From NCBI GenBank assembly GCA_021776245.1, contig JAJFGF010000068.1, forward strand, positions 186,001 through 250,000: DNA of 64,000 nt, written 5' to 3'. The position numbers were made by a program, and so were the translations under genes. The first letter of the stretch is position 1; the number at the start of each line of letters is the position of its first letter. The notes beneath the pieces are model-generated. The model ran no database searches, was not told where the DNA came from, and saw only the letters and a program-made list of their open reading frames with translations. Shown here in pieces: positions 10,730 through 52,429 of the stretch. The stretch comes from Hyphococcus sp. Lineage in GTDB: Bacteria; Pseudomonadota; Alphaproteobacteria; Caulobacterales; Parvularculaceae.

Positions 10730-12166
10730 ATGAGAAAAACAGCCCTTCGCGCCCGCGCCAACCGGCGCCCGCCAAACCTGAAATCCCCGTCGAAAGGTTA
10801 TTCCGCGGGCGCCTTGCTCGCCGCCGCCTTTGGCGGCGCCCTGGTGTTTGGCGCCCTTTCAAGCGCGGTTTTTGCCAGGGCGTCTATTTCCGCCGATACG
10901 TTCCGACAGCTCGACCTGTTTGGCGAAGTGTTTGAACAGATCCATGAAAACTACGTCAGCGAGCCGGAAGACAGCGAACTGATCAAGGGCGCCGTCGACG
11001 GCATGCTGGCGACGCTTGACCCTCATTCAAATTACATGACCGCCGAAGACTTCCAGACCATGCAGGAGCAGACCCGCGGCACATTTGCCGGGCTCGGCAT
11101 TCAGGTGACCATGGACAACGAGGGCGCTGACAAGGGGCTGATTAAAATCATCGCACCGATCGACGACACACCGGCCGCAAGAGCGGGCCTTCAAACGGAT
11201 GACCTGATCGTCAAGATTAACGGCGAAGACGTCCTGGGCATGTCAATCGACGAAGCGATATCCAAGCTGAAAGGCGAGAAGGGCACAAAGGTCGATATTT
11301 CAATCCTGCGCGAACGCGACAAGGATGCTTTTGACCTAACCATCGTACGCGACATTGTCACCGTCCAGTCTGTCACACATCGCGTAGAAGGCGATTTTGG
11401 CTATGTTAGGATTTCAACATTCAGCGAACAGACCGCGGATGGCCTGAAAAAAGCGCTGAAAAAGCTGTCGAAAGAAATTCCCGGGGGACCGAAAGGCGTG
11501 ATCCTGGATTTGCGATCCAATCCCGGCGGTTTGCTGGACCAGGCAGTTGCCGTCACAGATGCATTTCTCGAAGGCGGTGAAATCGTCTCAACCCGGGGGC
11601 GCCGTGCGCGCGACACTTTGCGCGAAATGGGCACACCCGGCGACAGGTTGAATGGCAAGCCGATGATTGTCCTCGTGAACGGCGGCTCTGCATCTGCTTC
11701 AGAAATTGTCGCTGGCGCTTTACAAGACCGCAACCGCGCGTTGCTGCTTGGCACAAAGAGCTTCGGTAAAGGATCCGTACAAACCGTAATCCCCTTGCAA
11801 AATGGCCTGCAGGGCGCCCTGCGATTGACCACAGCGAAATATTATACGCCCTCCGGTCGGTCGATACAGGCGCTCGGCATTGTCCCGGATATTCGCATGC
11901 CCGTGATCTATCCGGGTCAGGAGACCCCCGCTGCTCGACCCGCGGAAAGCGATCTTCCTGGTGCCCTTGCCGCCGAAAATGCGGTCGCAGCAAATGAGGC
12001 GGTATTGGATGAGGACGGTCTGACGCCCGTCGAACCAGTGCAATGCGGTGAGGACGAAGATGGCGCGGTTAAGGATTGCCAGCTCGAACGGGCGCTCGAA
12101 ATCCTCGCCGACGCCACCGTTTATCGACAAGCCCTTGCCGACGCTGGAGCCGCGCACGCTCAATAA
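10730..12166 (+). CDS. ctpA: S41 family C-terminal processing peptidase
   Basis: A 478-residue envelope serine protease. An N-terminal membrane anchor or signal (about residues 25-47) is followed by a PDZ domain (about 110-190, GLGIQVTMDNEG to IVKINGEDV) and the S41 catalytic domain with Ser in GGSASASEIVAGAL and Lys in GTKSFGKGSVQTV, the Ser-Lys dyad. It trims or degrades periplasmic proteins, in relatives including peptidoglycan hydrolases, which fits the upstream envC-like gene. The tail beyond residue 400 is acidic with two Cys. AGGTG lies six bases before the ATG. A GC-rich hairpin follows the gene. Confidence 0.94.
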   Translation: MRKTALRARANRRPPNLKSPSKGYSAGALLAAAFGGALVFGALSSAVFARASISADTFRQLDLFGEVFEQIHENYVSEPEDSELIKGAVDGMLATLDPHSNYMTAEDFQTMQEQTRGTFAGLGIQVTMDNEGADKGLIKIIAPIDDTPAARAGLQTDDLIVKINGEDVLGMSIDEAISKLKGEKGTKVDISILRERDKDAFDLTIVRDIVTVQSVTHRVEGDFGYVRISTFSEQTADGLKKALKKLSKEIPGGPKGVILDLRSNPGGLLDQAVAVTDAFLEGGEIVSTRGRRARDTLREMGTPGDRLNGKPMIVLVNGGSASASEIVAGALQDRNRALLLGTKSFGKGSVQTVIPLQNGLQGALRLTTAKYYTPSGRSIQALGIVPDIRMPVIYPGQETPAARPAESDLPGALAAENAVAANEAVLDEDGLTPVEPVQCGEDEDGAVKDCQLERALEILADATVYRQALADAGAAHAQ

Positions 12167-47151: not shown

Positions 47152-47215
47152 TATGAAGGTTCGGGCGCTCGGATCAAATGGGCGCTTTGGCCAAAAGGTA
47201 AGCTGGGGAAAATTA

Positions 47216-47314
47216 GGGTGGAAGACTGAAACGACCCGCGCAAAAACTCGTTGCGGCTGCTTCCTTCCGGATCTGACCGGGTTGGCGAGAAGCGCGTCCG
47301 CCAGCCTTCCGCGG
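47216..47314 (-). ncRNA. ffs: signal recognition particle RNA (4.5S-type)
   Basis: The minus strand contains the diagnostic domain IV hairpin: CTCGCCAACCCGGTCAG followed by ATCCGGAAGGAAGCAGCC, including the GGAA tetraloop and the Ffh-binding internal loops. The closing helix GGAAGgCTG (from 47310) pairs with CAGtCTTCC (to 47220), which fixes the ends to within a few bases and gives a core of about 91 nt. It lies just upstream of dnaX on the same strand, a position seen in many alphaproteobacteria. Confidence 0.92.
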
Positions 47315-50287: not shown

Positions 50288-50716
50288 TCAAAAAATTCCA
50301 AACCGCTTTTTCTTTTTATGCCGTTTCAATGCAGCCCTGCCCTCATCAGACGCCATAAAACTTTGATAATCCCGCTCCGGCCGTTCTGTGCGCATAGCCG
50401 TTGCCTGCATCCCCTTGATCAAATCATCGCCATTAAAAGTCTGGTTCGCCATGTCCGGCGGGGTCATTTCCGCCGCGTTCCGGTCGTTGCGGCGGGCATT
50501 GCGTCCGAATTTCTTTTGCTGGCCTGCCAGCTTTTCACGCAAGGCAGTGAAAGCCGCCGCCGCCGGCGCATCGAAATTTTCCGGTAGAAGCGCCACGTCC
50601 TCGGCCGCATAATCCACACGATGGGGGACGGCGATATTGTCAATGCCGCCGCCGGTCAGGTGACGGCTCGTTGTTTCTTCGAACCCGGCCCAAATATTTC
50701 TTAAACGGTTACCCAT
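50288..50716 (-). CDS. hypothetical protein, basic C-terminus, partner of Ntn-hydrolase-like gene
   Basis: A 142-residue protein I do not recognise. It is hydrophilic, with an Ala/Glu-rich centre (LPENFDAPAAAAFTALREKL), a basic stretch (KKFGRNARRNDRN) and a very basic end KRHKKKKRFGIF. No signal peptide or membrane segment. It starts 18 bases after the proteasome-like gene on the same strand, so the two are likely co-transcribed and may work together; the basic tail could bind nucleic acid or an acidic partner (inference). Confidence 0.62.
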   Translation of the reverse strand: MGNRLRNIWAGFEETTSRHLTGGGIDNIAVPHRVDYAAEDVALLPENFDAPAAAAFTALREKLAGQQKKFGRNARRNDRNAAEMTPPDMANQTFNGDDLIKGMQATAMRTERPERDYQSFMASDEGRAALKRHKKKKRFGIF

Positions 50717-50734
50717 AGACCTTCTCCGATACGC

Positions 50735-52018
50735 CTAAAGTTCGGCTTTTTCACGCTTCCACTCAAGCCCGCCATTGCGCGTGATCACCGCAACGTCGAT
50801 TGGCCCGCCTACGGTTTCCACCGAATGCATGACTTTTTGCTGGAATGAATTCAGTTTGATCAGCGACGCCGCCGTTTCACCCAATTCCTTTTTCGGCAAC
50901 GAATTGATCGCCCGCAATATCGGCCGCGTATGAACTGAATATTGATAATTATCGACGGATCGGAAAAACTCATGCACTGCGTGCGCGAGATTGTTCTCGC
51001 TGTAATCTTTGTAAATTGCATTACGCTGGGCGTCGGTGAGATTTGGCGTACGGCTTACGATATCAGTAACAAGCCCCATCGAAAGCTTTACCGTTTCGCC
51101 GTAAACAAACATCCGCAAATATTGATCCATGCCGGTTAGGAACGTGCGGATCATCCGGTCCTGCGCGAAAGGCTGGAACACCGGGCCGCTTTCGGAATTG
51201 ATCGCAGCTTCGCGATCGCGTTTGCGCTTCAAGATGCCGAGAATGACGCTGGATGTCAGATAGGATCGCATTGACGGAAATTTTTCCCGTGCGCCAAAAC
51301 CGGCGAACACAACGCCCGTATAATGCTCAAAAAACGCATCTTTCGTAACCGCAAACACAGCGATCTCGCGCAACATGGATTTAGTGGCGTCGGACACAGC
51401 CAAGCCTGGATGATCGTTTTTCAACGATTGCAACAGGCTGCCGATCAACTGCTCAATTTCACCGCCATAGCGACGGCGCACCTGCTCGCCCATCCCGGCC
51501 GGAAAACAGGTGAGCTCTGCGCGCGGCGAATCGTCTGCGCAGCGCTGGTAATCAGCGTGCAGCTGCCCTACGACAAATTCGAACATCGCAGAAATCTGAT
51601 CGCGAATATGTCCGGAATTTGATTGCTGGTATTTTTGCACTTGATAGTCGAACTCTTCGGCAAGCACCGTATAGACGACAGCCACCACCTTGAAAAATTC
51701 CGTGTCCTGATGTTCAGGCGGAAACAAGTCGGGATTGCCGGATAAAAATTCCATGAAGTCTTCAGCGTAAGCCTGAACCGTGTCGAGCGCGCGGCCGCGC
51801 GCCTGTTCGCGATAAAGCGAGATCACCGTCTCCCACGGCGTCGACATGATTTCCGCATTATTATAAATCATCACCGCGACCGGCTGACCGTCGACCAGCG
51901 GAAACAGCTTATCGACCGATTGATAAGTCTTCAGATAGCGGTCGCCGGAAATGGTGACGGCGCTGTCGGCGGCCATCGCTACTGCCTGGCGGTTCATCAA
52001 CACGACTTCGGATGTCAT
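50735..52018 (-). CDS. proteasome-beta-like Ntn-hydrolase candidate with long helical insertion
   Basis: A 427-residue protein. ATG at 52018 has GAGGGG just upstream and leaves Thr as residue 1 after Met removal. The start TSEVVLMNRQAVAMAADSAV resembles proteasome beta/HslV N-termini, with Asp at position 17 in AADS exactly as in the catalytic site; a Lys follows at 36 (SVDKLFPL; canonical Lys33), then DGQPVAVMIYNNAEIM. The last residues GGPIDVAVITRNGGLEW look like closing strands of the same fold. Between them lie about 290 mostly helical residues not found in proteasomes. No family name known to me; activity inferred. Followed by a small basic protein gene. Confidence 0.68.
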   Translation of the reverse strand: MTSEVVLMNRQAVAMAADSAVTISGDRYLKTYQSVDKLFPLVDGQPVAVMIYNNAEIMSTPWETVISLYREQARGRALDTVQAYAEDFMEFLSGNPDLFPPEHQDTEFFKVVAVVYTVLAEEFDYQVQKYQQSNSGHIRDQISAMFEFVVGQLHADYQRCADDSPRAELTCFPAGMGEQVRRRYGGEIEQLIGSLLQSLKNDHPGLAVSDATKSMLREIAVFAVTKDAFFEHYTGVVFAGFGAREKFPSMRSYLTSSVILGILKRKRDREAAINSESGPVFQPFAQDRMIRTFLTGMDQYLRMFVYGETVKLSMGLVTDIVSRTPNLTDAQRNAIYKDYSENNLAHAVHEFFRSVDNYQYSVHTRPILRAINSLPKKELGETAASLIKLNSFQQKVMHSVETVGGPIDVAVITRNGGLEWKREKAEL

Positions 52019-52291
52019 TGACCCCTCACGACTTCCCCAAACCATGCCGGCCCGACCCCCGCCATCCGACTGGAAGGGCGATTGAAAACCGGCTGAAATT
52101 CGATGTTAGCGGGAAAATCGCCGCAAGGGAACAAGGCGGCAAAACCGGCCATTTCCCGAGTGTACGCCCTGTTTCAGGGGTTTAAATGGTGAGCACCCGC
52201 TTAACCAAGGGCCTCTAAAAGTTAGGAGAATTTTTCATCAATTTTGTCGAGAATTTACGTGAGGGTGGAGCGCTTGTAAGGGAGCGTTCGA

Positions 52292-52429
52292 ATGGAAGTC
52301 GTGGGTGTATTCGGAGGATTAAGCCTCGTGGAATTAATACTGTTCAGCTTTATCGGCGCGAATATGGCGATATGCGGCGCCTTCCTTTTACAATGCGGCG
52401 CAAAACGAATGACGGTCGACGACAAATAG
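52292..52429 (+). CDS. small membrane protein, 45 residues
   Basis: ATG at 52292 is preceded by AGGGAG with seven bases spacing. The product starts EVVGVFGGLSLVELILFSFI and continues GANMAICGAFLLQCGAKRM, then ends TVDDK: one hydrophobic helix with a short charged C-terminus and two Cys. It lies alone in a 400-base gap between the Ntn-like gene and selO, convergent with selO. The good ribosome site and clean membrane-helix composition argue for a real small protein; no homologue recognised. Confidence 0.5.
   Translation: MEVVGVFGGLSLVELILFSFIGANMAICGAFLLQCGAKRMTVDDK

Follow-up and report, generated by a model that had tools for sequence, protein, structure and literature searches.

A PMI-4-like proteasome homologue and a candidate small partner protein in Hyphococcus sp. 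and other Parvularculaceae

The window analysed here is a 64,000-nucleotide stretch of an alphaproteobacterial genome, Hyphococcus sp. (assembly GCA_021776245.1, contig JAJFGF010000068.1, positions 186,001 to 250,000), and the subject of this report is a pair of adjacent minus-strand genes within it, the first coding for a 427-residue protein with the features of a proteasome-type hydrolase (hereafter the enzyme) and the second for a 142-residue protein (the partner) that begins 18 bases past the stop of the first. An earlier note, made from the DNA letters alone, had delimited a two-gene unit at 50288..52018, and these limits are right. The features of the pair are listed below, with structural elements taken from an AlphaFold2 model; L and G numbers in the text are our handles for loci and genomes.

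50735..52018, minus strand: PMI-type proteasome-like N-terminal nucleophile (Ntn) hydrolase, 427 residues, Met-Thr start (MTSEVVLMN); based on the reading frame, relatives, model and Foldseek
52013..52015, minus strand: codon of Thr2, mature Thr1, the predicted nucleophile (60 Thr and 2 Ser among 62 relatives)
51965..51967, minus strand: codon of Asp18, mature Asp17 (62 of 62 aligned relatives)
51908..51910, minus strand: codon of Lys37, mature Lys36, the likely counterpart of proteasome Lys33 (62 of 62)
51740..52018, minus strand: core part 1, residues 1-93, N-terminal strands and helices H1/H2 (mean column identity 0.63)
51323..51739, minus strand: helical insertion 1, about residues 94-232, at the "pore loop" site after H1/H2, with helices 101-133, 138-158, 176-202 and 210-225 (mean column identity 0.28)
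51131..51322, minus strand: core part 2, residues 233-296, four beta strands (234-240, 249-259, 262-272, 280-284) and H3 (288-295) (mean column identity 0.49)
50897..51130, minus strand: helical insertion 2, about residues 297-374, between H3 and H4, with helices 299-323 and 329-373 (mean column identity 0.30)
50738..50896, minus strand: core part 3, residues 375-427, H4 (376-396) and the last strands (407-413, 417-423), with the ETVGGPIDVAVITR motif (mean column identity 0.71)
50288..50716, minus strand: partner protein, 142 residues; based on linkage, substitution rates and co-absence
50291..50317, minus strand: partner C-terminal tail KKKKRFGIF; based on tail-pattern searches of the genome and of 132 loci

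Neither open reading frame (ORF) is a product of chance, because the enzyme was matched in 39 of the 60 genomes searched, its own included (35 of them nearly full length, by our count), and the small gene, compared with one relative, has a nonsynonymous rate (dN) of 0.12 that lies far below its synonymous rate (dS) of 1.34. The enzyme is at most 92% identical in congeners, and its named relatives include Parvularcula and Marinicaulis. A longer mechanical start of the enzyme frame lies at 52045, and the common start is M1-T2, with its ATG at 52018; all 62 aligned relatives have methionine as their first residue, with starts set from tblastn matches. The partner frame runs from 50716 to 50288 and its product ends in KRHKKKKRFGIF.

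The alignment of 62 enzyme relatives from several phyla served as input for the AlphaFold2 model, which scored a predicted local distance difference test (pLDDT) of 89.6 and a predicted template modelling score (pTM) of 0.86. All 29 Foldseek matches in the PDB at E<=0.001 are 20S/26S proteasome or assembly-intermediate entries, and Anbu chains follow next. On the model the enzyme is a proteasome-beta-like Ntn fold, as the earlier note had proposed; a predicted structure lacking that fold, which the note had named as a refutation, was not what the modelling gave. Among viral models, Foldseek found none at 0.001, the best being a phage "Proteasome beta type-2 subunit" (E 0.0018). In a PDB profile search, the last strand of the enzyme, GGPIDVAVITR, aligns with GGMIDVAVITR of proteasome beta (whole-sequence E 5.3e-3); the sequence evidence for this kinship is thin, and it points in the same direction as the structure.

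The predicted active site is strongly conserved. Mature position 1 is Thr in 60 of the 62 relatives and Ser in two (L106, Gracilimonas; L111, Rhodohalobacter), while Asp17 and Lys36 are invariant, so that the loss of Thr1 or Asp17 in homologues, which the earlier note had named as grounds for giving up its proposal, was not seen. Gly235, Gly240 and Gly242 are likewise invariant. A Ser1 is also reported for BPH and CodW (PMC5777263). The start M-[TS] is found in all 62 aligned relatives, which points to a protein with no N-terminal propeptide.

The helical part of the protein had been described as one insertion of roughly 290 residues. Large helical insertions are indeed predicted, and they are two, not one, because four core strands at 234-284 split the stretch; the single-insertion reading is thereby ruled out. 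The core is thus made of residues 1-93, 233-296 and 375-427, with helices 101-225 and 299-373 interposed, and both insertions are less conserved than any of the three core parts (identities above). Their lengths vary among relatives, from 108 to 146 residues for the first and from 68 to 81 for the second.

This architecture is not without precedent. In 2021 a set of 22 new proteasome homologues was reported by Fuchs, Alva and Lupas (PMC8665760), and the largest new family in their table, PMI-4 ("Proteasome homolog with Multiple Insertions"; 501 nr90 sequences), was named from sequence, with no function assigned, and ranges over most bacterial phyla, Euryarchaeota and phages. PMI-4 and the window enzyme are alike in having Thr/Ser1-Asp-Lys, no propeptide, and long insertions at the pore-loop (H1/H2) and H3/H4 sites. 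They are also alike in spread: the enzyme family has at least one locus each in Proteobacteria, Firmicutes, Actinobacteria, Bacteroidetes, the Planctomycetes-Verrucomicrobia-Chlamydiae group, Cyanobacteria, Euryarchaeota and phages, according to record titles, many of them of metagenome-assembled genomes (MAGs). Hence the enzyme, presented earlier as undescribed, appears to fit PMI-4, a membership judged from described features. PMI-3 has insertions at the same two sites, but its 28 nr90 sequences come from Proteobacteria, other bacteria and Euryarchaeota, with no phages (Table 1 of PMC8665760), whereas the enzyme family here is far wider. Insertions at the pore-loop and H3/H4 sites have been argued to hinder ring or double-ring assembly, with other orientations left open, and the Discussion of the same paper reports for the new homologues no genomic context or co-occurrence pattern that hints at function (PMC8665760).

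Other known systems share less with the enzyme. HslV has the same Thr1 Ntn fold but is compact and works with the ATPase HslU, whereas the enzyme carries two large insertions. The window genome has a separate hslV-hslU pair, its hslV (L236) beginning about 10.5 kb beyond the window end on the same contig, and its HslU ends in NADLSKYIL, to which the partner tail would seem only loosely similar. Membership of the enzyme in HslV, Anbu or BPH is ruled out by the insertions, and a profile comparison of the enzyme family with the genome's own HslV gave a probability of 0.6%. Connectase is also proteasome-like, with an inserted helical element, and offers a ligase precedent; it differs in that its insertion lies between S3 and S4 and in that it is found in some methanogenic archaea. 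Finally, phrog_5990 (PHROGs v4), listed there without a function, matches 62 of 62 aligned members (window enzyme E 3.6e-76, best 1.3e-225).

The partner follows the enzyme closely within the home family. Of 53 loci examined in Parvularculaceae and related alphaproteobacteria, 52 have an ORF of at least 100 residues directly 3' of the enzyme, and at the 53rd (L047) the contig stops 412 bases past the enzyme, where tblastn matches the partner; the small protein had thus been rightly taken for a real companion. Near relatives keep the surrounding selO-, threonine dehydratase-, cytochrome c-, pheA-, nudC- and dnaX-like genes (names by our reading), whereas many farther loci (among them L064-L069 and L075-L079) have none of 11 tested window neighbours and keep the enzyme-partner pair, and L070, L072 and L074 retain one or two of the 11. 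In a search of 13 chosen genomes, all 9 that have the canonical enzyme also have the partner, and both of those without it (G513, G523) lack the partner. The other two, G545 and G675, were scored as lacking the enzyme, which is probably an assembly gap because the end of the partner is present at a contig edge. Parvularculaceae partners are 24-60% identical to the window partner (alignment A3). The partner has no NCBIfam match and one sub-threshold Pfam match (E 0.09), and its model, in which predicted helices are joined by linkers of low confidence, would suit a flexible protein. No description of the partner gene was found in the open-licence literature or in the Discussion of PMC8665760, and we regard it as a new element of the system.

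Whether a small gene always follows the enzyme was a question the earlier note had raised, and the regularity of the home family is not matched elsewhere. Under a strict rule (an ATG-initiated ORF of 40-90 residues with a Shine-Dalgarno-like site, starting -40 to +60 bases from the enzyme stop), 62 loci non-redundant at 70% identity were considered, 59 of them with enough sequence, and 28 of the 59 have such an ORF. Among 359 control genes from the same loci, each at least 200 residues long, 13 have one (Fisher p about 1e-17). Some misses arise because long partners of more than 90 residues fall outside the length range. Small downstream genes are already annotated in several phage records and one Enterococcus plasmid, and an E. 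coli record has an unannotated 49-residue ORF at the partner position. On a Pantoea plasmid (L171), the enzyme is followed after 20 bases by an ORF of 35 residues, below the counting length limits, whose start resembles a ribosome site. Eight related partner pairs were compared, and six of them, those for which dS could be computed, have dN/dS of 0.07-0.29, to be read with the caveats that dS exceeds 1, near saturation, in most pairs and that two pairs share one sequence. A motif chosen post hoc, after inspection of the sequences, [EDQ][FWYV]x3[YFLCWM]xP, is present in 17 of 47 non-Parvularculaceae partners, short and long taken together, 7 of 54 candidates having been removed beforehand (L029-L032, L094, L102, L158), with a shuffled mean of 0.5. 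Among all 4,942 small ORFs at these loci, a set that contains the partners, 63 have it. A hidden Markov model (HMM) of the short partners matches L097 and L115, two partners on which it was not trained (E 1.7e-4 and 1.5e-3). No homology was shown between the window partner and the short partners (the best Parvularculaceae match to the short-partner HMM has E 10, and hhalign gives E 0.55), and a visual resemblance between "LLPENF" and "YYPESF" was not counted.

Most alphaproteobacterial partners have a private basic-aromatic tail at the C-terminus. Between partners of Parvularculaceae and those of the Maricaulaceae type (f5, named via the Oceanicaulis locus L110), the alignment is confined to the 11 C-terminal residues (E 2.8e-5, probability 74%; L110 and L081-L083 excluded from the comparison), where the shared forms are RKKFLG[IL]F or KKRFG[IL]F. 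The end FLG[IL]F is present in 8 of 8 aligned f5 partners, and a looser pattern fits 41 of the 47 partners in A3. Across 1,814 proteins of 132 loci, the C-terminal pattern [KR][KR].?[FWLI].?G[IL]F occurs in 33, every one a partner; these patterns were defined after looking at the sequences. In the whole window genome, K-R-F-G-[IL]-F-stop occurs once, at the partner, and [KR]-x-F-L-G-[IL]-F-stop has no occurrence (Arg searched only as AGR). The tail is thus unlikely to be a widely used tag. A clamp-binding or HslU-like role for it is an idea suggested by resemblance.

Two architectures can be distinguished. Most enzyme relatives carry a C-terminal RKHYF...LN extension and are followed by a short ORF, whereas in the chromosomal alphaproteobacterial type, including that of Parvularculaceae, the extension is missing and the partner is long and usually tailed. 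At 81 loci non-redundant at 70%, tabulated with a loose rule for the downstream ORF, 54 combine the extension with a short ORF, 17 combine its absence with a long ORF, 3 lack the extension and have a short ORF, none has the extension with a long ORF, and at 7 no ORF was found. Some rows are misassigned: L102 (HKHYF, followed by an unrelated 407-residue gene), L031 (probably off-frame), L174 (broken, its "partner" being its own end) and L170 (RKHYF more than 60 residues before the end). The table suggests that the tail replaces the RKHYF extension, an idea that looks striking but is weak because a tree of 74 architecture rows shows about four label changes, with the main split on one branch. 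Two Parvularculaceae loci, L217 (G523) and L216 (G508), have divergent extension-type copies with a short downstream ORF, and G508 has a canonical pair as well.

The enzyme family is broadly but unevenly distributed. It was confirmed at 209 genome loci, of which the best 80 were kept, and on 48 viral contigs, in 13 phage records and in 10 plasmid records. The enzyme is sporadic across the class Alphaproteobacteria (16 of 385 genomes) and near-fixed in the home family, in 57 of 60 genomes by our count, which assumes that 199 unlisted genomes include no further members of that family; G523 has only the divergent type. In both streptococcal satellites viewed, a single small gene comes after the enzyme and ends the element; in prophage Javan85 the enzyme itself is the final gene, and it adjoins holin genes in one Providencia and one Stenotrophomonas phage. 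At five loci, enzyme relatives lie within a few kb of a multiubiquitin-ThiF E1-DUF6527 module (L170, L174, L175, L176 and L103; four plasmids of Rhizobium and Mesorhizobium and one Caulobacter MAG, in two gene arrangements), and a ClpP-like gene is also present beside the module in three Rhizobium plasmids. A multiubiquitin search of the window genome gave no match, and its control gave none anywhere either, so that this negative does not show absence. At L170, a Mesorhizobium plasmid locus, the enzyme has 478 residues because its C-terminus continues past RKHYF in a long basic stretch. No partner ORF was found there, and the protein may be an enzyme-partner fusion.

Three further features of the window lie outside the pair. 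A hydrophobic, divergently oriented ORF of 45 residues (52292-52429, plus strand) lies between the enzyme and the selO-like gene. The bacterial small signal recognition particle RNA is found at 47215-47312, minus strand, beside the dnaX-like ORF (Rfam RF00169, E 8e-9). A match to Rickettsia sRNA47 (Rfam RF02800, 72.7 bits) at 11510-11810, minus strand, falls within a large opposite-strand ORF (10730-12166, plus strand) and may reflect conserved coding sequence.

Fold, conserved catalytic residues, the two insertions, the coding nature of the partner, its linkage and its co-absence were all computed here, and we interpret them as follows, with chances that we put at about even: the pair would be an ATPase-independent threonine hydrolase of the PMI-4 kind together with a flexible partner, which would regulate or target it and dock through its own tail. 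An initiator methionine is expected to be removed when the next residue is small, as threonine is. Its removal would expose Thr1 as the nucleophile, with Asp17 and Lys36 assisting, and the enzyme would have no propeptide to process. It might then cleave or transfer acyl groups, as a selective peptidase or an acyl-transferase. The two insertions probably block the usual arrangement of a ring with an ATPase cap, and the enzyme probably works without a dedicated ATPase because they make a conventional capped ring unlikely, following the argument of PMC8665760. Enzyme and partner may be read from a common transcript, and the partner may dock on the enzyme through its basic-aromatic tail and either control its activity or bring it to a target.

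Several observations weigh against this interpretation. The activity, binding and expression of the pair are proposals from sequence and model. On the side of the enzyme, the top Foldseek match has a template modelling score of 0.55 by target and 0.29 by query, with a root-mean-square deviation of 17 A, modest values that we attribute to the insertions, and the HslV comparison quoted above stands against 0.2% for an unrelated control. The window enzyme has no Pfam, NCBIfam or PDB-sequence match, the Pfam Proteasome family is matched by only 4 of 62 relatives at E<=0.1 (best 2e-4), and in the PDB profile search an unrelated helical protein outscored proteasome beta (5.6e-4, on insertion 1). The presumed oxyanion-hole position, the Gly47 equivalent by our count, is Asn in the window enzyme (Gly in 33 and Asn in 20 of the 62). 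As to the partner, its model is poor (pLDDT 71.2, pTM 0.28), with helices at low confidence; 6 of the 47 A3 partners do not match the tail pattern; 31 of 59 loci fail the strict rule; and under the looser rule 7 of 81 loci have no ORF of at least 38 residues, two of them (L095, L164) at sequence ends. Long and short partners have no detectable homology (hhalign E 0.55 and 0.03), and no single motif common to both was seen. The co-absence is based on G513 and G523 only, and it may be a single loss because the two share a genus.

A fuller version of the interpretation, which we hold to be rather unlikely in all its parts, is an unrecognised two-component, ATPase-free threonine protease or ligase module, in which the partner tail docks at the site of the RKHYF extension and switches on or aims the enzyme, and which is kept vertically in Parvularculaceae, whereas phage satellites, prophages and plasmids carry it as a conflict weapon, in some cases next to ubiquitin-like conjugation genes.

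The partner might instead be the substrate of the enzyme, cleaved or ligated to something else. The layout of one enzyme and one small protein with a private tail is what a dedicated substrate would lead one to expect; the genome contains the K-R-F-G-[IL]-F-stop pattern once, and the related connectase is a specific protein ligase (PMC8665760). Nevertheless, a conserved C-terminal end does not by itself make a cleavage or ligation site, and the short partners listed have no such tail and no motif seen in common with the long ones, so that we think this unlikely. Less readily still would we read the pair as a conflict module, of the toxin-antitoxin or anti-phage kind, domesticated in Parvularculaceae, in which the enzyme would be harmful to the phage or to the infected cell and would be kept in check by the partner. 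The many relatives on phage, plasmid and viral records, the terminal positions in the streptococcal satellites and in Javan85, and the sporadic occurrence in the class all agree with it; however, the window enzyme matches 0 of 5,027 defence models (PADLOC), only five defence families were matched among the 62 members, weakly (best E 0.0029) and by one or two members each, and the enzyme is near-fixed in its home family. Distant chromosomal neighbours are mixed, with a few restriction-modification and DUF1016 genes; they were counted without a control (140 of 145 proteins from 27 loci, the five largest left out) and carry no weight in our assessment.

A reading close to that of the earlier note, in which the enzyme forms self-compartmentalising rings as HslV and BPH do and the partner is a minor assembly factor, would agree with the proteasome-like core fold and active site, but we consider it improbable in view of the insertions at the pore-loop and H3/H4 sites, which are argued to hinder rings, with other orientations left open (PMC8665760). 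That the partner is a mere passenger of unrelated function would accommodate the lack of detectable homology between short and long partners and a pairing known from genes alone, but it is very improbable given that the position recurs in several phyla and on mobile elements, that partner and enzyme are absent together, and that the pair persists where the other tested neighbours are gone.

In summary, the enzyme is a real, well-conserved member of the proteasome family, of a known but unexplained kind, and the novelty lies in the partner and in the two architectures. The 22 homologues described in 2021 came with few functional clues (PMC8665760), and the partner gene, which extends from phage satellites to alphaproteobacterial chromosomes, is a concrete handle on PMI-4 function. 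If the interpretation of an ATPase-independent hydrolase with a docking partner is true, the pair would represent a proteasome-family enzyme under the control of a small protein instead of an ATPase ring.

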